Source of the DNA: Spirochaetia bacterium
Lineage (GTDB): Bacteria > Spirochaetota > Spirochaetia > DAHUYW01
Length of the DNA stretch: 33,573 nucleotides
Assembly (NCBI GenBank): GCA_030041455.1
Contig: JASHNV010000115.1
Coordinates: 1-33,573 of the forward strand
Direction of reading: 5' to 3'
Shown here: positions 7,289 to 18,775 of the stretch, piece by piece
Layout of the letters: each line of letters opens with the position of its first letter
Numbering within the stretch: the stretch's first letter is position 1
Notes under the pieces: model-generated
What the model was told of the DNA's origin: nothing
What the model saw: the letters and a program-made list of their open reading frames with translations, nothing else
The model's database searches: none
Program-made: the position numbers and the translations under genes

Positions 7289-10200
7289 TCATTCCCCCGC
7301 GGCGCTCTCCTTCCTGGGGGCGCCCGCGCGCTTTCGCTCGAAGATGTAGAACGCCGCCGGGACGACGAAAAAGGTGAGGACCGCCGAGAAGATGATTCCC
7401 CCGAACATGACGACGCCGAGCCGTTGGCCGAACTCCGAGCCCTCGCCGTGCCCGAAGACGAGCGGGCCGGAGATCACGAGGACCGTGAGGGTGGTCATGA
7501 CGATGGGCCTGAAGCGGAGCCGCGCGGAGTCGATGAGCGCCTCGGCAAGCGGCATCTTCCCGATCCGCTCCACCACGAAGTCGAGGTACAGGATCGCGTT
7601 TTTCGCCGAGAGACCGATGAGGAGGAGGAGCCCGAGGACGCCGAACACGTCGAGTCCCCCGCCGATGACCGCGACGAAGAGGAGCGCCCCGATGATGGCG
7701 AGCGGCACCGGGAGGAGCAGGTAGACCGGGTAGCGCCAGGAGTTGAATTGCGCGGCCATCACGAGGTAAGCGAGGAAGACGGCAAGGAGGAACGCGAGGG
7801 GCCCGGCCGTCGAGAGTTGCTTGGCGAGCGCCGCCGGACCGAAGGAGGACCCCGGGCTCAACGCCACGCCGTCCTTGAGGAGCCCCGCGGAGGCGAGATC
7901 CCCCTCGAGGGTGGACTGCAGCGCGAGCGCCGGCGGCGCGCCCTTCTTGAGATCGATCGAGAGCGTCGCGGTGTAGAGGCGGTCGAAACGCGTGAGGGAG
8001 ACCGGCGTGCGGTTGACCTTCAGGGAGCCGAGCTGCCCGACCTCGACGATCGACTGGAGCGTCGGCGAGTAGACCGGGAGCGTGAGGAGCGACTGTCCGC
8101 CGCTCAGATAGGTGGGATCGATTTGAACCTCGATCGGATAGCTTAGCCCTCCGATCTCGGCGGTTCCCGCCTGGGTGCCCGAGGCGTAGGTCTGCAGCAC
8201 GTCCGCGACGGCGCTCGGGGTTATCCCGGTCCCCTCGATCCGCGCGTCGTCGGGAACGAAGTCGTTCTCCGTCGTCGCGTCGGAGAGGCTCGACACGACG
8301 TCCCGGACGTACGGGTTTCGCTCGATGGTGTGGACGATCTCGGCGTTGCGCGTCGCGAGGAGATCCTTGTTCGCGGAAACGATGTTGAGGGTGACCGCCG
8401 AGCCCTGGCCCTGAAAGCCTCCGCTCGCGCTCACGATGAGCTGCGCCGAGGGCTCGTCGGCGACGAGCCGGGTCATCGGCCCGCGGTAGTCGTCGATGAG
8501 GTCGTAGACGTTCCTTCGTCGGTCGATCGCCACGAGCTGCACGTCGATCGTCGCGTTTTGGGTCTGCGAGACGCCGGTCGTGAAGACGCCGGTGCTTCCG
8601 ACGACGGCCTGGACCGTCCTCACCTCCGGCCGGGCGAGGAGGAAGCGCTCGATCTTCGCGGTCTCCACGTTCGTGACCGAGAGGGGCGTTCCGGGGGCGA
8701 GGCTGAGGTTGATGACCATGGTCCCGTCGTCGCTCTGCGGAGCGAAGCTGAACGAGATCCTCGGGAAAAGGACCACCGCGAGGATCACGATCATGGCGAC
8801 CGAGCCGACGAGCACCCACGGTCCGTGGCGAAGCACCCGGCCGAGGGACCGGGCGTAGGCGTCGCGCAGGACCTCGAGGCCGGCCTCGGTCAGGCCGTGG
8901 AGCGTCGTCGTGAGCGCCTGGAGGAAGCCGAAGACGAGGCGGAGGAGATAGCGGCCGAGCCCGAGCGCGAGCGGGTAGAGAACGAGGAGAGGGAGGAGGA
9001 CCGGGTGCCGCGTCAGGGCGAGCGCGCCGAGCACGGCGAGCCCTAGGATCACGCCGAAGGCCTTCCTCCACGCCGAGAGCCCCCAACGGATCGATTCCCG
9101 GAAACGCGCGGCGTTCCGCCCGACGTCCGCCCACGTGAGATTTCCCGCGGGCTCGGGCGTATAGGCGAGCCTCACGGTGAGGAAGAGCACCGCCTCGAGG
9201 AGCGAGAAGGCGACCGCCGCCGCGAGGCCGAGCGCGAACTGCCTGAGAAAGAGGCCGACGATCCCCGGAAGGAAGCTGACCGGGATGAGAACCGAGAGGA
9301 GCGAGAGCGAAGCGGCGACGACCGCGCTGAAGACCTCGCTCGCGCCGCGCAGGACCGCCTCGGTGAGCTTGAATCCCATCGCGCGATAGCGGGCGACGTT
9401 CTCAGCGACGACGATCGAGTCGTCGACGACGATGCCGATCGCGACGATGAGGGCGAGGAGCGAGATGAGATTGAAGGTGAAGCCGAGGAGGTTGTAGAGG
9501 ACCGGCGCGGCCGACAGCGCGATCGGGATCGCGAGCACCACCGAAAGGACCGTGTTGAGCCTTCCGAGGAACAGCAGCACGATGAGCGACACCACGAGGG
9601 CGGTGACGGCGAGCTGGCGCACCGTAGCGGCTATGGTCGCGCGGATCGCGCCGGTCGAGTCGTCGCTCACGAGGATCCGGTAGCCGTCGGGGAGCTGGGT
9701 GCTCTGGAGGAGCGCGCGGACGCCCGCGACGACCGCCACCGAGTTCGCCCCGGTCGCCTTCTGCACCGAGACGAGCACGACGGGAACGCCGTTCACCCGG
9801 GCGATGTTGGTCGCCGCCGCTTCGTCGCGCACCGAGCCGACGTCGGCCACGGTGATGCCCCGCGTCGTGTCGACGACGATGCGGCTGATCTCGGCGACGT
9901 CGGCGGGCATCTTCTCGGTCGAGAAGCTCAAGGTGTCCCGGTTCACGACGATGGAGCCGATGGGCTGGTCGATCGCGGAGCTCTCGATCGCGGTCACGAC
10001 CTGCTGGGGATTGAGCCGGTAGTATTGCAGGAGGTTCGGATTGAGGAGCACCTCGAAGGTCCGAGCCGGCGCGCCGTCGGTCTGGACGTTCGCCACGCCG
10101 CCCACGCGCAGGAGCAGCGGCGTGAGGTTGTTCTGGACGTAGTCGGCGACGTCGGCGAGACTCCTCGTCCCGCCCGCAAGGCCGAACTGGATGATCGGAA

Positions 10201-10651
10201 TCGCCGAGGGATCGAACGTTTGCACGACGGGCGCCTGCGCGCCGCTCGGGAGCTTGCGCACTTCCGCCGACACCTGCGAGGCGACCTCGTTCGCGGCGCT
10301 GCTCTGGTTGACGCCGAGGTCGAAGGAGACGACGACCTGGCTCGTGCCGGTGAAGCTCGTGGAGTCGATCTCGGTGATTCCGTTCAGCGACGAGACCGCG
10401 TCCTCGATCTCCTGGGTGATCTGCTGGTCGATCACGCTCGGCGTCGCTCCGGGATAGGTGGTGGTGACGACGACGAAGGGGAAGTTGATCTGCGGAAACT
10501 GATCCACGCCGAGGCTCAGCGTGCTGATGAGGCCGAAGGCCACCACCGCGACGAACAGGCCTATCGCGAGGACGTACCGCGTGACCGAGAAGCGCACGAG
10601 CGGATTGATCCGGTCGAAGATCCTCGCCTCGAAGTCGCGGAGGGAGCTCAT
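7289..10651 (-). CDS. RND-family efflux pump, inner-membrane permease (HAE1 type)
   Basis: The protein has 1120 residues. The start is the ATG whose A-T-G-A overlaps the adaptor's stop. It has the duplicated RND architecture: one membrane helix, a large periplasmic loop, five helices, then the same again. TM4 carries the proton-relay pair Asp410-Asp411 in GIVVDDSIVVAENVARY, equivalent to AcrB Asp407/Asp408. TM10 has Lys1017 in GLSAKNAILYLDF, equivalent to AcrB Lys940. The first pair is displaced by about 3 residues relative to AcrB and the lysine by about 77, so some 75 extra residues lie between. They fall around residues 505-600, where two extra hydrophobic stretches are visible. The pump would drive proton-coupled export of drugs, detergents or lipids with the adaptor and TolC-like protein encoded upstream. 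Substrates are unknown. Confidence 0.92.
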   Translation of the reverse strand: MSSLRDFEARIFDRINPLVRFSVTRYVLAIGLFVAVVAFGLISTLSLGVDQFPQINFPFVVVTTTYPGATPSVIDQQITQEIEDAVSSLNGITEIDSTSFTGTSQVVVSFDLGVNQSSAANEVASQVSAEVRKLPSGAQAPVVQTFDPSAIPIIQFGLAGGTRSLADVADYVQNNLTPLLLRVGGVANVQTDGAPARTFEVLLNPNLLQYYRLNPQQVVTAIESSAIDQPIGSIVVNRDTLSFSTEKMPADVAEISRIVVDTTRGITVADVGSVRDEAAATNIARVNGVPVVLVSVQKATGANSVAVVAGVRALLQSTQLPDGYRILVSDDSTGAIRATIAATVRQLAVTALVVSLIVLLFLGRLNTVLSVVLAIPIALSAAPVLYNLLGFTFNLISLLALIVAIGIVVDDSIVVAENVARYRAMGFKLTEAVLRGASEVFSAVVAASLSLLSVLIPVSFLPGIVGLFLRQFALGLAAAVAFSLLEAVLFLTVRLAYTPEPAGNLTWADVGRNAARFRESIRWGLSAWRKAFGVILGLAVLGALALTRHPVLLPLLVLYPLALGLGRYLLRLVFGFLQALTTTLHGLTEAGLEVLRDAYARSLGRVLRHGPWVLVGSVAMIVILAVVLFPRISFSFAPQSDDGTMVINLSLAPGTPLSVTNVETAKIERFLLARPEVRTVQAVVGSTGVFTTGVSQTQNATIDVQLVAIDRRRNVYDLIDDYRGPMTRLVADEPSAQLIVSASGGFQGQGSAVTLNIVSANKDLLATRNAEIVHTIERNPYVRDVVSSLSDATTENDFVPDDARIEGTGITPSAVADVLQTYASGTQAGTAEIGGLSYPIEVQIDPTYLSGGQSLLTLPVYSPTLQSIVEVGQLGSLKVNRTPVSLTRFDRLYTATLSIDLKKGAPPALALQSTLEGDLASAGLLKDGVALSPGSSFGPAALAKQLSTAGPLAFLLAVFLAYLVMAAQFNSWRYPVYLLLPVPLAIIGALLFVAVIGGGLDVFGVLGLLLLIGLSAKNAILYLDFVVERIGKMPLAEALIDSARLRFRPIVMTTLTVLVISGPLVFGHGEGSEFGQRLGVVMFGGIIFSAVLTFFVVPAAFYIFERKRAGAPRKESAAGE

Positions 10652-11898
10652 GTGCCGCCCCGCGCCCGCACGGGCGATCCGTCGATGAGCCCGGCGGGCG
10701 GATTGACGACGAGGCTCGCCCCGCCGCCGATCCCGGAGACTGCGGCCTCGGTGCCGCTCTCCGCCATGATGGTGATCGGCGTCTGCCTCGCCGTGTCGTT
10801 CTCGATGAGATAGACGTAATTCGTGTTGTCGGTCGCCTCGATCGCCGCGATCGGAACGAGGACCCCGTAGGCGAGATCGACCGAATACTCGACGCCGCCG
10901 ACCGCGCCGTAGGGGAGGCTCTCGATCGCGGGACCCGAGGCGATGACCGGCACCGCGCCCGAAACGGGGGCGGCCGGGGACTGCGTCACGCGCAGAGGGT
11001 AGTCGGCGCCCCGGTAGGAGAAACGGACCTCGCTTCCGACGACGAGGCTCGCGGCGTCGCCGGGCGCGACGCTGAAGTCCACCTGCCGGTCTCGGCTTGC
11101 GAGCACGAAGGCGGGCCCGTCGGCGCCGATGAACTCGCCCATCTGGGCGGTGAGCGAGACGATCTGGCCCGCGAACGGCGCTCGAACCGAGGCGCCCCGA
11201 AGGTTGTACGCAGCCTCGTCGAGCTGCGCCTGCGCCTCGCCGACGGCGAGCTTCAGCCGCGCGATGTCTCGCGTGCCCGCCTTCCGGTTCTCGTCGAGCG
11301 CGGTATCCGCTGCCTGCAGGTTCGCCTTCGCCTGGTCGAGCTGGCTTTTCGCGCTCTCGAGGCTCGACTCGGTCGTTCCGCCGAGCTTGTAGAGGGCGGT
11401 TTGGGCTTGGTAGCTCCGCTCGGCGGCCGAGAGCGCGGCCTGCGCCGATTGCAGCTGGAGCGCAAGCTTCGGGTTCGCCTGGCTGCTCGAGTCCTCCTCC
11501 ATCTGGAGGTTGATCTGCGAGCTTTCGAGCGCGGCCCGTGCGTTGACGGCCGCGAGGCGGAGGAGCGTGTCGTCGAGCTCGATAACCTCCTCGCCCGCGT
11601 CCACCCAGTCGCCGGCCTTCTTGAGGGTACGGACGACGACGCCGCCAACCTCCGCCGCGACGCTGCTCTGGACGACCGGCTGGACCGTGCCGGCGGTCTG
11701 ATGTCGGACGTCGAGGGAGCCGAGCGACACGGTGACCGCCTGGACCGGGAGCGCGAGCGGCGCGTCGGCGCCCTTCGGCGTCGTGCCCTGCGCGGGCACG
11801 GTCTGCGCGCCGTGAGCGGGCGCTCCGGCGCCGCAGGCGCCGAGCAGGAGCGAAGCCGCCGCCGCGGCGGCGCACGCGAGGAGACCCTGATACTTCAT
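10648..11898 (-). CDS. RND efflux periplasmic adaptor (membrane fusion) lipoprotein
   Basis: The protein has 416 residues from the ATG at 11898, which is preceded by GAGG eight bases upstream. A GTG three codons earlier (11907) is an alternative. The N-terminus is a lipoprotein signal peptide with lipobox LGAC (Cys22 from the chosen start). Then come a biotinyl-lipoyl-like segment (SVAAEVGGVVV and GDWVDAGEEVIELDD), a long alpha-hairpin of heptad-rich sequence, the second half of the lipoyl domain (VRAPFAGQIVSL), and a beta-barrel. These proteins bridge the RND pump and the outer-membrane channel in the periplasm. The gene lies between the TolC-like and RND genes; its stop overlaps the RND start by four bases. 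Confidence 0.9.
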   Translation of the reverse strand: MKYQGLLACAAAAAASLLLGACGAGAPAHGAQTVPAQGTTPKGADAPLALPVQAVTVSLGSLDVRHQTAGTVQPVVQSSVAAEVGGVVVRTLKKAGDWVDAGEEVIELDDTLLRLAAVNARAALESSQINLQMEEDSSSQANPKLALQLQSAQAALSAAERSYQAQTALYKLGGTTESSLESAKSQLDQAKANLQAADTALDENRKAGTRDIARLKLAVGEAQAQLDEAAYNLRGASVRAPFAGQIVSLTAQMGEFIGADGPAFVLASRDRQVDFSVAPGDAASLVVGSEVRFSYRGADYPLRVTQSPAAPVSGAVPVIASGPAIESLPYGAVGGVEYSVDLAYGVLVPIAAIEATDNTNYVYLIENDTARQTPITIMAESGTEAAVSGIGGGASLVVNPPAGLIDGSPVRARGGT

Positions 11899-11908
11899 TC
11901 GCCTCACC

Positions 11909-13426
11909 TCACTCCCCCATGACGTTGAGCAGATCGAGGACCCCGAGCTGGGCGTTGCGCTCCGCCTGCGCGAGGTCCGACTGCGCGTTCGCGTTGTCCA
12001 CGGAAGCGTCCAGGAGGTCCTGGTTGGTCGCCGTGCCGTAGGTCACCTGCGACTCTTTCAGCTTGAAGAGAAGACCGAACTTCTCGGCCGCGAGCCGGGC
12101 GAGCTCCAGCCGCTCGAACTGGATCTGGACCGCGTCGTAGGCTTGTTCAATATCGGCCGCGATATTCCGCTCGACCTGCGCCTCCTGCAGCCGGTAGACT
12201 TCCTGCTGCTGGAGGTTCGCTTCGACCTTGCTCTTTGCCGCTCCGCCGTCGAGGATCGGCAGCGACAGGTCGACGCCGAGATTCGCGACTTCGGCGTTGT
12301 CGCCCTGGCCCTGCCAGTCGAGGAGGACGCTCGCGCCGCCGCTCACGGAAACCGTGGGAGTCTGCGCGCCGCGGACGAGGTCGAGATCGATGTCGGCGGA
12401 CTCCCTGCTGAGCTCGATCTCGCTCGCGTCGCTCCTGCGCTTGAGGCCTTCCGCGATCGCCTCCTCCACGCTCCCCACCGGCATCGCCGGCGGCGCCTCC
12501 TCCTTCACGAGGAATCGCGCGCCAGACGGGTAGCCCATGAGGTCGGCGAGCCTCACCCGCGCGATCTGGAAATCGTACACCGCGCTCTGGTAGTCGATGA
12601 CGGCGCTCCTCGCGTTGATCTCGGCGCTCTTCAGGTCGACCTCCGTCGCCTGTTTCAGCGCCGCGATGGCGCGGATCTGGTCGTAGACGTCGCGTTGCTG
12701 CTTGACGATCGTCTCCTTGACGTCGAGCGCGCGCTGCGCTCCGAGCATCGAGTAGAACGCCTGCTTCACCTTGTAGACGAGGTTGAGCCGCGAGGCCGCG
12801 GTCGAGAGCTTTTGACTCTCGAGGCCGAGCAGGCTCTTCTTCACCGCCGCGAGCCCGGTGCCTCCCGGGTAACCGTTCCAGATCGTTTGGTTGACGCTCA
12901 CGCTGAGGGAGCCGGTGTTGTCGTTGATGGTCGGAATGATTTCGCCGGGCAGATTCGGCAGGAGGCTAAAAAGCGACGACTGGCTCGCGATGGAGGGCAT
13001 GTAGGGGTTGGCCGTCACCGAAAGGCTCGTGAGGGGCCCGTTCACGGTGAGCCCGGCCTGCGGGCCGTCCCAGTTTCCGGCGCCGGAACCGGTCACCGAG
13101 GAGTGAAGCTCGTAGAGCGTCGGGTCCCCGAAAGTCCCGGAATCCCCGTAGCCGAGCGATCCGCTCACGGTCACGGCGTTCGTCGCCTCGGTCGCCTCGA
13201 ACTGCTCGGTCGCGACGTCGAGGTTGCCCTGGAGGATCTTGTTGTCCGGACCGTCGGCGAGCGCGGCCTCGATGCACGTCGATAGCGAGAGGACCTCGGG
13301 AGCCTGCGACGGGGCGCCGAGCGCCTTCGCGGACGGGATGAGGAGGACAGCGATCGAAACGAGCGCGGCCGGGGCGCGCGCGCAACGGATGCGCGAGCGC
13401 CCCGCGGGGGTTGCTCTGAGCGCCAT
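11909..13426 (-). CDS. TolC-like outer-membrane efflux protein
   Basis: The protein has 505 residues with an N-terminal Sec signal (hydrophobic core near residues 18-32, cleavage plausible at AKALGA). Two repeats of the outer-membrane efflux domain follow, each with long helical, alanine- and glutamine-rich segments such as AAKSKVEANLQQQEVYRLQEA, and the ending NAQSDLAQAERNAQLGVLDLLNVMG is typical of TolC-family proteins. It would form the trimeric outer-membrane exit duct, which implies a diderm envelope. AAGGA precedes the ATG at 13426 at good spacing. It is the first gene of the tolC-adaptor-RND operon, ending ten bases before the adaptor start. Confidence 0.88.
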   Translation of the reverse strand: MALRATPAGRSRIRCARAPAALVSIAVLLIPSAKALGAPSQAPEVLSLSTCIEAALADGPDNKILQGNLDVATEQFEATEATNAVTVSGSLGYGDSGTFGDPTLYELHSSVTGSGAGNWDGPQAGLTVNGPLTSLSVTANPYMPSIASQSSLFSLLPNLPGEIIPTINDNTGSLSVSVNQTIWNGYPGGTGLAAVKKSLLGLESQKLSTAASRLNLVYKVKQAFYSMLGAQRALDVKETIVKQQRDVYDQIRAIAALKQATEVDLKSAEINARSAVIDYQSAVYDFQIARVRLADLMGYPSGARFLVKEEAPPAMPVGSVEEAIAEGLKRRSDASEIELSRESADIDLDLVRGAQTPTVSVSGGASVLLDWQGQGDNAEVANLGVDLSLPILDGGAAKSKVEANLQQQEVYRLQEAQVERNIAADIEQAYDAVQIQFERLELARLAAEKFGLLFKLKESQVTYGTATNQDLLDASVDNANAQSDLAQAERNAQLGVLDLLNVMGE

Positions 13427-14701: not shown

Positions 14702-14729
14702 TTGATTTTTCCGGATGCTCGGCTATGAT
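14702..14729 (+). promoter_or_regulatory. Sigma70-type promoter, apparently leaderless, for the cyclase gene
   Basis: TTGATT (14702-14707) and TATGAT (14724-14729) are separated by 16 bases. Transcription would begin at about 14736, and the ATG is at 14738. There is no Shine-Dalgarno-like sequence upstream. The arrangement repeats that of the preceding gene. Confidence 0.65.
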
Positions 14730-14737
14730 TGCACGAC

Positions 14738-16852
14738 ATGCACCCCGAGGACTACCGGCTCGCGGCCATCATGTACAGCGACATAGAGGGCTTCGGTCGG
14801 ATGATGGAGCAGGAGGCGAGAAACGCGCTCGACCTGCTCGATTATCAGCACAGCCTCATCCGCGACCTCGCAGAAACCTCCAAGGGTCGGGTCATCAAGA
14901 CCGTCGGCGACGACACGCTCGTGGAGTTTCCCACGACGCTCGACGCGGTGAGCTGCGCGGTCGCGATCCAAGAGACCATCGCCGACTACAACGCGAGGAG
15001 CGGCAAGCCCCCGCTTCGGCTGCGGATCGGAATCCACCTCGGCGACATCCATTTCCTCGAGAACGACGCTCTCGGCGAGGGCATCAACGTGGCCTCCCGG
15101 CTTCAATCGATCGCCCGCCCCGGCTGCGTTTGCGTCTCCGAGGACGTGTACAACAACGTCGTCAACCGCTTTCACGGCGACTTTCGCAGGTTCGGCGTCG
15201 TGAAGGCGAAGAACGCGGACAAGGAGATCAACGCCTACGAGATCGGAACGCCAAGCTCCCCCGCCCAGTCGGGGCGCCCCGAGCGCGGAGAGCCCGAGCG
15301 AGAGTCCCGGGAGCCGAAGGCGTCGGCGGGCGAGGACGCCGAGTTCGACGAGCTCAAGGCGTTCGTCGTCCAGCAAATCAAACGCCTCGGCCGGCGGCTC
15401 TCGGTCGACCGGTTGAAAGCGATCTTTCCCAATCCCGGCCCGGACTTCGATCGCGAAGTCGAACGCCTCGCCGACATGGGCTTTCTCTCCCGGGGGGGCG
15501 ACGCTTCCGGGGAGGGGGAAGGCGCCGCGAGATCCGAAGGAAGACCGCACGACTGGTATCGAGGCTACGAGCGCATCGCCTGGGAGAAGGCGGCCTGGAA
15601 GGCGCAGAGGCACGCATTGCATCACGCCGAGCACGTCCGACGCCATCTCGAGCGCCACGGCTACCGCGGCGATCCGTCGGCGGGGGCCCATTGGGGCCGC
15701 CCGGCCACCTACGCCGAATACCGCACGCAGGTGATCGAGCATGCGAAGCGGGCGCAGGCCGGGCTTCTCGGCAACCTGATTCCCTTCTTCGCCGTGAACG
15801 GCTTCCTTTTCTTCATCAACCTCACCACCGGATTCGCCTTCCCGTGGTTTCTCTTTCCCCTCGGGGGCTGGAGCATCGGCGCCGTGAGCCACCTCGTGTC
15901 CGCCGCCAACCACAAGCGCGAGCGCGACGAGGTCGAGGCGCTGCCCGAGACGCTGAGCGACAAGGATTACGACGAGCTCTATAGGTACCATCACGCGCGC
16001 GCCGCGGCGCGAACCACCGCGGGTTCGCTCCTCGCGGTGTCGGTTTTTCTCGCGGTCATCAACGCGGTGGTCTCTCCCCACTACCCTTGGGCGCTCTTTC
16101 CCATCGGCGGCATGATGATCGCCGTCGTGAGCACCATGTCGTCCTACCTTGCGAAACGGGGAGGATTCCTCAAGCGGCTGAAGCGCCTCATGTCGGGGAC
16201 GACGAAGGCGGCGGGGGAGCGCATCGAAGGCGAGGAGGGAGACGAGGGACTCACGAAGCAGGCGCGCGCCCTCGCCGAGGCGATTCTCGCCCAGGCGAGG
16301 ACGCTCGGCGACGACAAGGCGCACGTCGTGGGGGACCTCAAACCCCTCCTCGACGCCTATATCTCCCAGATTCGGAAGCTTTCGCGGAGAAGCTCCGAGG
16401 TCGACGAGATCATGGCCGCGCTTCCGCGCGCCGAGCTCGAGCGCGACCTCAGCGTGCTGCGCTCGCGGCTTGGCTCCGCGGCGAGCGAGAAGCTGAAGAG
16501 CGAGTATCGTCGGTCGATCGAGCAGATCGAGCGCCAGAAGAGCTCCTTCGACGATCTCAAGGGTCAGAAGGAGCTGCTCGATCTCAGGATCGGGAGCTCG
16601 ATCAACTCGCTGAAGCAGATGCAGATCGACATGGCGCGCATGGCCGGGCTCGACTCGAGCGCCGACTCAGGCTCCTACGCCGGCTTTCGCAAGAAGACCG
16701 AGGAGCTCGCCGAGTACCTCCAGGACCTCGAGGCGGGCTACCGGGAGCTCGACGAGATGCCGGCGCTCGGCAAGAGGGAGCGGTTGGAGGCCGATCGGCT
16801 CCTCCAGGAGTTCAAGACGAACGAGGAGCGGCGAAAGAAGGGCGGCGCGTAG
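14738..16852 (+). CDS. Class III adenylate cyclase fused to two 2TM modules and a C-terminal coiled coil
   Basis: The protein has 704 residues. The N-terminal class III cyclase domain (about 1-170) is catalytically complete: metal-binding Asp15 (YSDIEGF) and Asp58 (KTVGDD), purine-recognising Lys54, and the transition-state pair Asn117 and Arg121 (GEGINVASR). The position that is usually Asp three residues before the Asn is Glu114. Lys54 favours ATP over GTP. A charged linker with a helical segment (about 205-250) follows. Next come two 2TM-type hairpins at about 345-387 and 426-471, each with a P-W-x-L-F-P-[IL]-G-G loop. A long heptad-rich C-terminal region (about 500-700) completes it. The product would be a membrane-tethered cAMP synthase with a cytosolic scaffold or sensor tail. 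ATG 14738 is preferred over an upstream TTG because of the promoter position. Confidence 0.85.
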   Translation: MHPEDYRLAAIMYSDIEGFGRMMEQEARNALDLLDYQHSLIRDLAETSKGRVIKTVGDDTLVEFPTTLDAVSCAVAIQETIADYNARSGKPPLRLRIGIHLGDIHFLENDALGEGINVASRLQSIARPGCVCVSEDVYNNVVNRFHGDFRRFGVVKAKNADKEINAYEIGTPSSPAQSGRPERGEPERESREPKASAGEDAEFDELKAFVVQQIKRLGRRLSVDRLKAIFPNPGPDFDREVERLADMGFLSRGGDASGEGEGAARSEGRPHDWYRGYERIAWEKAAWKAQRHALHHAEHVRRHLERHGYRGDPSAGAHWGRPATYAEYRTQVIEHAKRAQAGLLGNLIPFFAVNGFLFFINLTTGFAFPWFLFPLGGWSIGAVSHLVSAANHKRERDEVEALPETLSDKDYDELYRYHHARAAARTTAGSLLAVSVFLAVINAVVSPHYPWALFPIGGMMIAVVSTMSSYLAKRGGFLKRLKRLMSGTTKAAGERIEGEEGDEGLTKQARALAEAILAQARTLGDDKAHVVGDLKPLLDAYISQIRKLSRRSSEVDEIMAALPRAELERDLSVLRSRLGSAASEKLKSEYRRSIEQIERQKSSFDDLKGQKELLDLRIGSSINSLKQMQIDMARMAGLDSSADSGSYAGFRKKTEELAEYLQDLEAGYRELDEMPALGKRERLEADRLLQEFKTNEERRKKGGA

Positions 16853-16938: not shown

Positions 16939-17364
16939 ATGGGGTCTGCCGAGAAGAAGCGACGCAGGGAGGCCAACCGGGCTCTTGCGGGCTACTCCTT
17001 CGTTTTCAACGGGCAGCGGAGGCCGCTCAAGGCGAGCCGGGCGGCGTCCGACATGCTCTTGGAGTATGCCTCCCCGCTCGTCGAACCGGTCCGAAGCTGG
17101 ATGCTCGCGGTGGCAATCGCGGTCTTCTCGTGGAACGTCACGCTCATGGAGCCGCCCAACCGTCCGAAGCTCATCGACGAGTTGGTTTCCTCGCTTTTCG
17201 GCGGGAAACCGGGTCTCCAGACGAGAGTCCGAACGTACGTGGCGCACATGATCGAGCGCAAGCTCCGATTGTACCCCGACGAGCCGATCTACTTTGCCGT
17301 CGACGCTCTGAGCGCTCCTCCCGCCGAAGGGGAGGCGCCGAGCTCCGTGGTCGAGGGGAGCTGA
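16939..17364 (+). CDS. Hypothetical protein (141 aa)
   Basis: I do not recognise this protein. It has 141 residues, starting at the ATG preceded by GGAGAGG at good spacing. The N-terminus is strongly basic (EKKRRREANRA). One moderately hydrophobic stretch around WMLAVAIAVFSWNV is too polar-flanked to be certain as a membrane helix. The C-terminal third is acidic. The wording YASPLVEPVRSWMLAVAIAVFSWNVTLM is that of a folded, mostly helical protein. It lies 86 bases after the cyclase gene and may be co-transcribed with it. A strong hairpin follows at 17416. No function is assigned. Confidence 0.65.
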   Translation: MGSAEKKRRREANRALAGYSFVFNGQRRPLKASRAASDMLLEYASPLVEPVRSWMLAVAIAVFSWNVTLMEPPNRPKLIDELVSSLFGGKPGLQTRVRTYVAHMIERKLRLYPDEPIYFAVDALSAPPAEGEAPSSVVEGS

Positions 17365-17557: not shown

Positions 17558-18775
17558 ATGAAGAAGCTAGAAATCGTACGGCAATGGATGGCTGAGGGGG
17601 TAATTCTCCATCCCCTCGAGCGCACCCCCAACAGCATCGACCTCATCAGGACGCTCGCGACGCTGTGCGGCTACAAGGAGTTCAAGGAGACGCACTGGGT
17701 GAAGTCCTTGAAGCGGGATCTCCTCGAAGGATACGCGCGCGGCCGGAAGCCCGAGCACTATCTTTTTGTTCTTGTCGACGGCATGGGGATGAATCTGTCG
17801 CCTCACTTTCCGGCCGGAGGCTTCTTCGAGTCGTGCTTCTCGCGCGAGCTCCGCGCGGTCTTCCCCTCCACGACGGCCTGCGCGGTCACCTCCCTCGTTA
17901 CCGGCGAGTGGCCGGGAACGCACGGTCTGACCGGCTGGTTCACCTACCTTCCCGACCGCCGCCGGACGATTCTCGTCCTTCCGTTCGTCGAGCGAATCAC
18001 GCAGGTCCCCCTCGAAAAGCTCGAGATCGGGATGTCCTCCGTGGTCTCCTCGAGGAGCCTCTTCTCGCAGCTCGAGTACGACACCGCGACCTTTCTCCCC
18101 CAGAACTTGAAGAAAGGGGAGTACAGCAAGTGGGCGCACGGGGATAGCGAGATGATCGGCTACCGGGGCGTCTCGAGCGGCTTTTCCGCGGTCGCCGATT
18201 ACCTTAACAAGAAGGGGAAGCCGACGTTTACCTTCTTCTACGTGCCCGACCTCGATACGGCCCAGCACGAGTCCGGGACCTCCGGATCGAAGGTGAAGAA
18301 GCTCGTCAAAGGCATAGACTCCCTGCTCATGGAGCTTCGGCGCTCTCTGCAGGGCGAAGTCCGGATCATCGTGAGCGCGGATCACGGGCTCGTCGACGTG
18401 CCGACGACCAGGCAGTTCGTCCTCGCCGACGGCGACCCCATGCTCAAGTACCTCGAAGTCCCGCCCTCAGGAGAGCCGGCGATGCCGGTCTTTCACGTGC
18501 GACCCGGCCAGGAGCGAAAGTTCGAGGAGTTCTTCAGCTCCTCCTACGGCGCGTTCATGGAGCTGCTCTCGGTGTCCGACGCGGAGGCGCTTGGCCTCTT
18601 CGGTTCCGACGGAATCTCGGTCACGATGCGCTCGCGCCTCGGCGACTTCATCGGGATCGCGGCCGAGCCGATGGTCTTTCTCTACGAGGCTCCCGGCCAG
18701 AAGCCGAGCGGCCTCGTGGCGTACCACGGCGGGCTGCAGCCGGAGGTCATGCGGGTGCCGCTCTTCCTCGCCTGA
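17558..18775 (+). CDS. Alkaline-phosphatase superfamily nucleotide pyrophosphatase/phosphodiesterase-like protein
   Basis: The protein has 405 residues with the full two-metal site of the superfamily: Asp74 (VDGMG), the nucleophile Thr105 (FPSTTA), Asp233 and His237 (DLDTAQH), Asp275-His276 (SADHG) and His390 (YHGG). The order and spacing match type I phosphodiesterase/nucleotide pyrophosphatase enzymes, which cleave phosphodiester or phosphonate bonds. There is no signal peptide, so unlike many relatives it seems cytoplasmic. Substrate is unknown. A TAGACT -10-like box lies at 17524-17529 but its -35 is poor, and no clear ribosome site precedes the ATG. The C-terminus ends soon after the last metal ligand (RVPLFLA). 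A hairpin directly follows the stop. Co-regulation with the upstream cyclase cannot be shown. Confidence 0.85.
   Translation: MKKLEIVRQWMAEGVILHPLERTPNSIDLIRTLATLCGYKEFKETHWVKSLKRDLLEGYARGRKPEHYLFVLVDGMGMNLSPHFPAGGFFESCFSRELRAVFPSTTACAVTSLVTGEWPGTHGLTGWFTYLPDRRRTILVLPFVERITQVPLEKLEIGMSSVVSSRSLFSQLEYDTATFLPQNLKKGEYSKWAHGDSEMIGYRGVSSGFSAVADYLNKKGKPTFTFFYVPDLDTAQHESGTSGSKVKKLVKGIDSLLMELRRSLQGEVRIIVSADHGLVDVPTTRQFVLADGDPMLKYLEVPPSGEPAMPVFHVRPGQERKFEEFFSSSYGAFMELLSVSDAEALGLFGSDGISVTMRSRLGDFIGIAAEPMVFLYEAPGQKPSGLVAYHGGLQPEVMRVPLFLA

Follow-up and report, generated by a model that had tools for sequence, protein, structure and literature searches.

In excerpts of PMC9552081, the 2, 4 or 6 membrane helices of bacterial class III cyclases are described as N-terminal anchors, and it is argued that the membrane anchors of cyclases may act as receptors. 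The cyclase analysed here, encoded in a window of 33,573 nucleotides (i.e., the whole stretch of DNA under study) from a Spirochaetia bacterium, likewise has a membrane-attached catalytic domain, yet its anchor comes after that domain rather than before it. A different likeness is to the mycobacterial CHD+LuxR proteins Rv0386 and Rv2488c, in which a cyclase is joined to a DNA-binding-type domain; in both the cyclase is N-terminal, and neither is known to have 2TM hairpins or the tail found in the window protein. CHD+LuxR is a named mycobacterial cyclase sub-family in the excerpted part of PMC3466318. The window protein shares its catalytic fold and its Asp, Lys and Arg positions with Ma1120 of Mycobacterium avium and with PDB 3mr7 of Silicibacter pomeroyi, whereas the matched PDB chains of the two comprise only 171-210 aa and have no 2TM-2TM-tail part. 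It also matches the 2TM family PF13239 in two stretches, its tail and cyclase lying outside that model. As an enzyme, the window protein shows every class III feature that was checked, and its arrangement departs from the described N-terminal anchors. Our preferred reading, to which we give a probability of roughly 0.5, is that an adenylate cyclase has been fused ahead of a conserved spirochaetal 2TM-2TM-tail module, and that it would work as a membrane-held dimer, with its geometry set by the module and cAMP as its output.

The gene lies at positions 14738-16852 of the forward strand and encodes 704 aa in a single open frame, from an ATG at 14738 to a stop at 16852. The frame is already open from a TTG at 14729, and the position of Met1 is occupied by Met in most aligned homologues. 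GC content at codon positions 1/2/3 is 0.66/0.44/0.875, and 22 aligned cyclase-bearing relatives are 29-53% identical to the window protein (22% for L080, a relative with a degraded cyclase). By its open frame, its third-position GC and its relatives, this is a real gene. An earlier note on this DNA had proposed that the cyclase comes first, followed by two 2TM hairpins and then a long coiled coil, and this order was borne out by a PF00211 match at residues 4-156, PF13239 matches in two stretches and a helical tail behind them. That domain list did overlook one element, a probable winged helix between the cyclase and the first hairpin. Structure prediction of the full-length protein was poor (pLDDT 57, pTM 0.30).

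The same note took the inverted order to be unusual, and within its own genome (3.39 Mb in 199 contigs) it is indeed uncommon. The genome holds 14 PF00211 matches and ten cNMP_binding matches, and in all 13 other PF00211 matches the middle of the catalytic domain falls in the C-terminal half of the ORF (a contig end leaves three of these ORFs open). The order is not a one-off, however, and the architecture recurs across the class. Among the titles and abstracts listed by literature searches, in a library with few of the subscription journals, none describes a cyclase-2TM-2TM-tail architecture, so the listings give no sign that it is already characterised. A fifteenth cyclase-like fragment (L014, 253-1686, on G000:C99) is matched by the window protein and has no PF00211 match. 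A contig end cuts it within the catalytic domain, and the ~415 aa that follow have TolB_N/TPR matches below their cut-offs, so the window protein is not the sole cyclase of this genome with a catalytic domain that is not last. The two differ in what follows the cyclase, i.e., weak TolB/TPR matches in the fragment versus 2TM hairpins and a tail in the window protein; a cyclase followed by TolB-like/TPR sequence is also found in alphaproteobacterial kin. A whole-protein search found no tail similarity elsewhere in the genome, and the tail profile finds one match only. Elsewhere in the phylum, the ~3.6 Mb Spirochaetota genome G191 has a large cyclase set, with 44 PF00211 matches.

The class III catalytic domain spans residues 1-175 (14738-15262, forward strand). 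Its PF00211 match scores 53.8 bits against a Pfam cut-off of 21.9, it matches PDB 3mr7 at E 2.4e-26 and Ma1120 at E 3e-12, and Foldseek likewise matched Ma1120/3mr7. The key residues are D15, K54, D58, D110, N117, S120 and R121, among them the two metal-binding Asp (D15, D58) and the transition-state Asn and Arg (N117, R121) of class III enzymes; the set listed in the earlier note as complete (Asp15, Lys54, Asp58, Asn117, Arg121) is all present in the alignment. According to excerpts of PMC4215837, K101, D157 and A167 are named mutant sites of Ma1120, the K and D being treated as ATP-specifying. Wild-type Ma1120 and its guanylate-type K101E/D157G/A167Y chain 5d0g differ at three positions, counted within the aligned stretch, and these changed sites align with Lys54, Asp110 and Ser120 of the window protein, which thus correspond to Lys101, Asp157 and Ala167. 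The purine-selecting sites hold Lys and Asp (K54, D110), as in adenylate rather than guanylate cyclases, and since this canonical pair is present, ATP is the predicted substrate. The same alignment rules out Glu114, which had been put forward as a replacement for the adenine-selecting Asp: the proposal looked at the wrong position, the selecting Asp being present as Asp110. Glu114 itself lies three residues before Asn117, at a site with either Glu or Asp in those cyclase-bearing relatives that were displayed.

Among full-length relatives, median pairwise identity is 57.7% in the cyclase, 34.2 and 28.2% in the hairpins and 34.8% in the tail, and the cyclase domain appears to be under strong constraint where present. 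The closest relative, from the same genus (L083, 4889-7081), has Gln at the position of Arg121 and keeps the other five key residues; its cyclase may be inactive or altered and, because it is the closest relative, near kin of the window protein may perhaps be inactive too.

Behind the cyclase, a domain at residues ~203-256 (15344-15505, forward strand) is aligned in 20 relatives. Its profile, compared with the PDB, has the winged helix of PdhR (5kvr) as best match at E 2.4e-4, with other winged-helix regulators matched at E 0.006 and weaker; the predicted model is of low confidence there. These profile matches point to a probable winged-helix domain. The duplicated 2TM modules claimed earlier were confirmed by PF13239, which matches in two stretches, the first at residues 340-389, with 50.3 bits against a gathering score of 24.8. 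By hydropathy the hairpins lie roughly at residues 343-389 and 426-472, and with their flanks they occupy residues ~325-400 (15710-15937) and ~410-480 (15965-16177), both on the forward strand. A sub-threshold DUF6320 match lies over residues 417-480. Each hairpin turns within about six residues, none of them charged. The stretch before the first hairpin contains 3 Lys/Arg and 2 Asp/Glu, the loop between the hairpins 7 Lys/Arg and 9 Asp/Glu, and residues 471-490, after the second hairpin, 7 Lys/Arg and no Asp/Glu. The uncharged turns and the basic stretch after the second hairpin fit a topology with both ends inside, and we infer that both ends of the protein are cytoplasmic.

The tail (residues 505-672; 16250-16753, forward strand) can be aligned across 31 relatives, the consensus lying around LKQMQIDMAR (625-634). 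The earlier note had described it as a long, heptad-rich coiled coil with no recognised enzymatic domain. The region after the hairpins has no Pfam or NCBIfam match at E<=1. Hydrophobic autocorrelation over residues 505-672 is weak both at lag 7 (equalled in 249 of 2000 shuffles) and at lag 4 (631 of 2000), and only at lag 3 is it clear (21 of 2000), and a structure prediction from three sequences yields five helices (mean pLDDT 81, pTM 0.65). Because the lag-7 periodicity is weak, "heptad-rich coiled coil" is a poor description of this region; judged by its alignment, the tail is an unnamed conserved domain without a covering Pfam model. Against solved structures, the best matches of the tail profile were YopN-type chains, at E 0.043 and 0.1, and Foldseek returned no structure at E<=0.001. 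VIA-align ranked BAR-type chains high, though with middling Z (8.7-10.8), among unrelated bundles and within the tool's stated helical-bundle background, and the net charge of the tail is -1 to -12 in 31 of the 31 members counted, which counts against a basic BAR membrane face. None of these matches is clear, and we claim no homology of the tail to YopN, BAR or other bundles. The tail also occurs behind other membrane regions, i.e., several hydrophobic stretches forming a multi-helix membrane region without a 2TM-model match in L172 (3452-4507) and one short hydrophobic region in L090 (9182-10018), and thus appears portable.

Searched as a whole, the protein was matched at E<=1e-15 in 42 of 392 sampled Spirochaetota genomes, in some of them in the catalytic domain only. 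The tail profile gave 31 matches in 29 of these 392 genomes and 67 matches in 63 of 394 genomes of the class, two samples that overlap. A search for the architecture had been suggested in the earlier note, and cyclase-2TM-2TM-tail genes do recur across the class; the cyclase is, however, often missing from them. A tree of the membrane-tail part has 70 rows, of which 3 have lost their front at a contig end. The other 67, tail genes with an uncut front, comprise 38 with a cyclase, 3 with a wrecked one (L080, L168, L174) and 26 with no cyclase match, where absence was called by alignment and BLAST in the earlier loci and by a purpose-built model (E<=1e-3, ORFs >=100 aa) in 42 later loci; several of the loci end at contig ends. 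The models for classifying tail genes were built from the first set of relatives. One gene scored as cyclase-less, L165, has ~240 aa before its hairpins that resemble a very worn cyclase, without a model match; in L153, L162, L164 and L166 the sequence ahead of the module is long but resembles a spurious upstream frame of GC-rich DNA, and no domains were read from it. All six residues (D15, K54, D58, D110, N117, R121) are kept in 28 of the 38 cyclase-bearing genes, 3 lack Asn117 only, and the other 7 are without a metal Asp, the Lys or the Arg. Ma1120 naturally has Ala at the Asn117 position and is active, as stated in excerpts of PMC4215837, and by this analogy the three cyclases without Asn117 may still work.

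Many tail genes have either no cyclase or a damaged one, so that the family seems to be built on its membrane part and not on the enzyme: the 2TM-2TM-tail module looks like a conserved unit and the cyclase like an optional front end, dispensable, it seems, in some lineages. What the earlier note called a coiled coil is a conserved domain, which in 26 of the 67 genes comes without a cyclase match. The 70-row tree requires no fewer than 10 changes in cyclase presence if the contig-cut rows are ignored, and its starred branches alone force 8 if those rows are scored as cyclase-lacking; this tree is a quick one with an arbitrary root (so that the direction of change is unproven), 24 of its 67 inner forks are open and several branches are long. 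Six loci were left out of it, i.e., L149 (158 aa), L152 (on a contig shared with L024), L085 and L082 (too short), L084 and L125. Presence is also more clustered than chance would give (12 changes, where shuffled labels average 23.2 and 0 of 500 shuffles come as low), indicating that it has been inherited over clades as well as changed. On a 31-row tree scored as intact versus lost, the 7-8 changes are the same as with shuffled labels (mean 7.9), which weakens the story of loss.

Individual genes add detail. The 508-aa cyclase-less gene of genome G264 (L076) and the gene of G195 with its intact cyclase (L059) form one family, grouped at full support. Both have beside them a divergent gene from the same cluster, and the cluster members scanned, in L054 and L076, are by their Pfam domains what we take to be radA-like. 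Because of this grouping and shared neighbour, the cyclase of the G264 gene was likely lost in place. In L140 and L141 the winged helix and the membrane-tail module are kept and there is no cyclase. No other ORF beside the cyclase-less genes L076, L081, L024 and L090 matched as a second cyclase at 1e-8, and among the 42 later loci one was found in L178 only, which has its own cyclase. The genomes with a damaged or missing version (G001, G264, G381, G363, G372, G355) keep 2 to 14 PF00211 matches each. In G372, a contig end cuts through a gene whose cyclase is degraded (L124, 1-1494), and a tail part lies near the end of another contig (L082, 9017-9745), adjoining an ORF unlike the cyclase-2TM-tail family; the two appear to be parts of one gene, possibly interrupted by an inserted element.

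In 41 loci, none longer than 20 kb (L054-L093, L024), the neighbour that recurred most often was a MerR/PTS-EIIA protein (11 loci), followed by an RNB nuclease (9); a MatE transporter, an SDF symporter and an unidentified protein recurred in 7 loci each and the radA-like gene in 5, these clusters having been identified from one or two scanned members each. The sets differ between families and no neighbour is common to the 41 loci, which led us to reject a dedicated operon or partner gene. In L076 a receiver-domain gene (8658-9059) overlaps the 3' end of the cyclase-less gene (9056-10582) by four bases, and in L059 a 138-aa gene likewise follows the cyclase-bearing gene. Next downstream of the cyclase gene in the window is a 141-aa ORF (16939-17364, forward strand) without a Pfam match at E<=0.05, and positions 17558-18775 hold a gene for a PF01663 phosphodiesterase/nucleotide pyrophosphatase. 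An RND-pump ORF on the reverse strand (7289-11875) is listed with 1528 aa, and ~400 low-complexity, out-of-frame-looking residues precede a plausible start (MSSLRDFEARIF...), so that the pump is probably of ordinary length; upstream of it, on the same strand, is an outer membrane efflux protein gene (11909-13426). A mobile origin was also considered and rejected, as the tail of the relative L023 has no plasmid match and its whole protein no viral match.

Under our preferred reading, two short hairpins would sit in the membrane with both ends of the protein in the cytoplasm, and the two subunits of a homodimer would bring Asp15/Asp58 and Lys54/Asp110 from one chain together with Asn117/Arg121 from the other to turn ATP into cAMP. 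The membrane module and tail would hold the dimer at the membrane and alter its geometry on a cue or through a partner; we place the cue in the membrane or the cytoplasm because there is no extracytoplasmic domain to bind a ligand from outside. The cAMP would then act through the cNMP-binding proteins of the genome. In sum, this would make the window protein an adenylate cyclase that works as a homodimer and is anchored, and probably also regulated, by what lies C-terminal to the enzyme.

It is possible, though we doubt it, that the membrane module and tail are a plain anchor and dimer clamp, which would leave the cyclase constitutive, placed at the membrane and sensing nothing. The lack of a periplasmic domain and the short hairpin turns would agree with this, as would the lower conservation of hairpins and tail compared with the cyclase. 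There is no need for an inert anchor to be retained where the cyclase has gone, however, yet the 26 genes without a match and the 3 wrecks have it, and throughout the class the tail has retained a specific motif. These same 29 genes, the seven relatives without a metal Asp, the Lys or the Arg, and the Gln of the same-genus relative could instead mean that the protein serves as a scaffold and that its cyclase domain is turning into a pseudo-enzyme, cAMP synthesis being incidental in the lineage of the window. We consider this unlikely, as the window protein and 28 of the 38 relatives keep all six residues and the cyclase is the best conserved part of full-length relatives. More speculative by far is the idea that the 2TM-2TM-tail part senses the state of the membrane (curvature, tension or lipid packing) in a way found in these bacteria alone, an elongated, BAR-like helical tail lying along the inner face and reporting through the fused front domain; were it true, cAMP would signal the shape of the cell or stress in its envelope. 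That the protein belongs to a Pycsar-type (pyrimidine cyclase) anti-phage defence system is highly improbable, for although the PADLOC PycC model matches residues 7-167 at E 7.3e-8, that match covers the shared catalytic fold only, the purine-selecting Lys/Asp pair is present, the seven window neighbours scanned (the PF01663 gene among them) include no recognised cyclic-nucleotide effector, the small downstream ORF matches no Pfam family, and the plasmid and viral searches with a relative's tail and whole protein, respectively, were empty.

To return to the adenylate cyclase with its C-terminal module, membrane cyclases usually read "sensor first, enzyme last", and here the order is reversed, in an architecture that is spread over a class of spirochaetes and has no outside-facing domain. 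As many lineages keep the module without complete catalysis, it probably also serves a purpose in its own right, for instance as a scaffold or a sensor. This retention of the module without a complete enzyme is the part most worth following. Where the enzyme is missing or damaged and the module is kept, nature has run an experiment, and matched relatives with and without catalysis would show both what the module does by itself and how a C-terminal anchor controls a cyclase.
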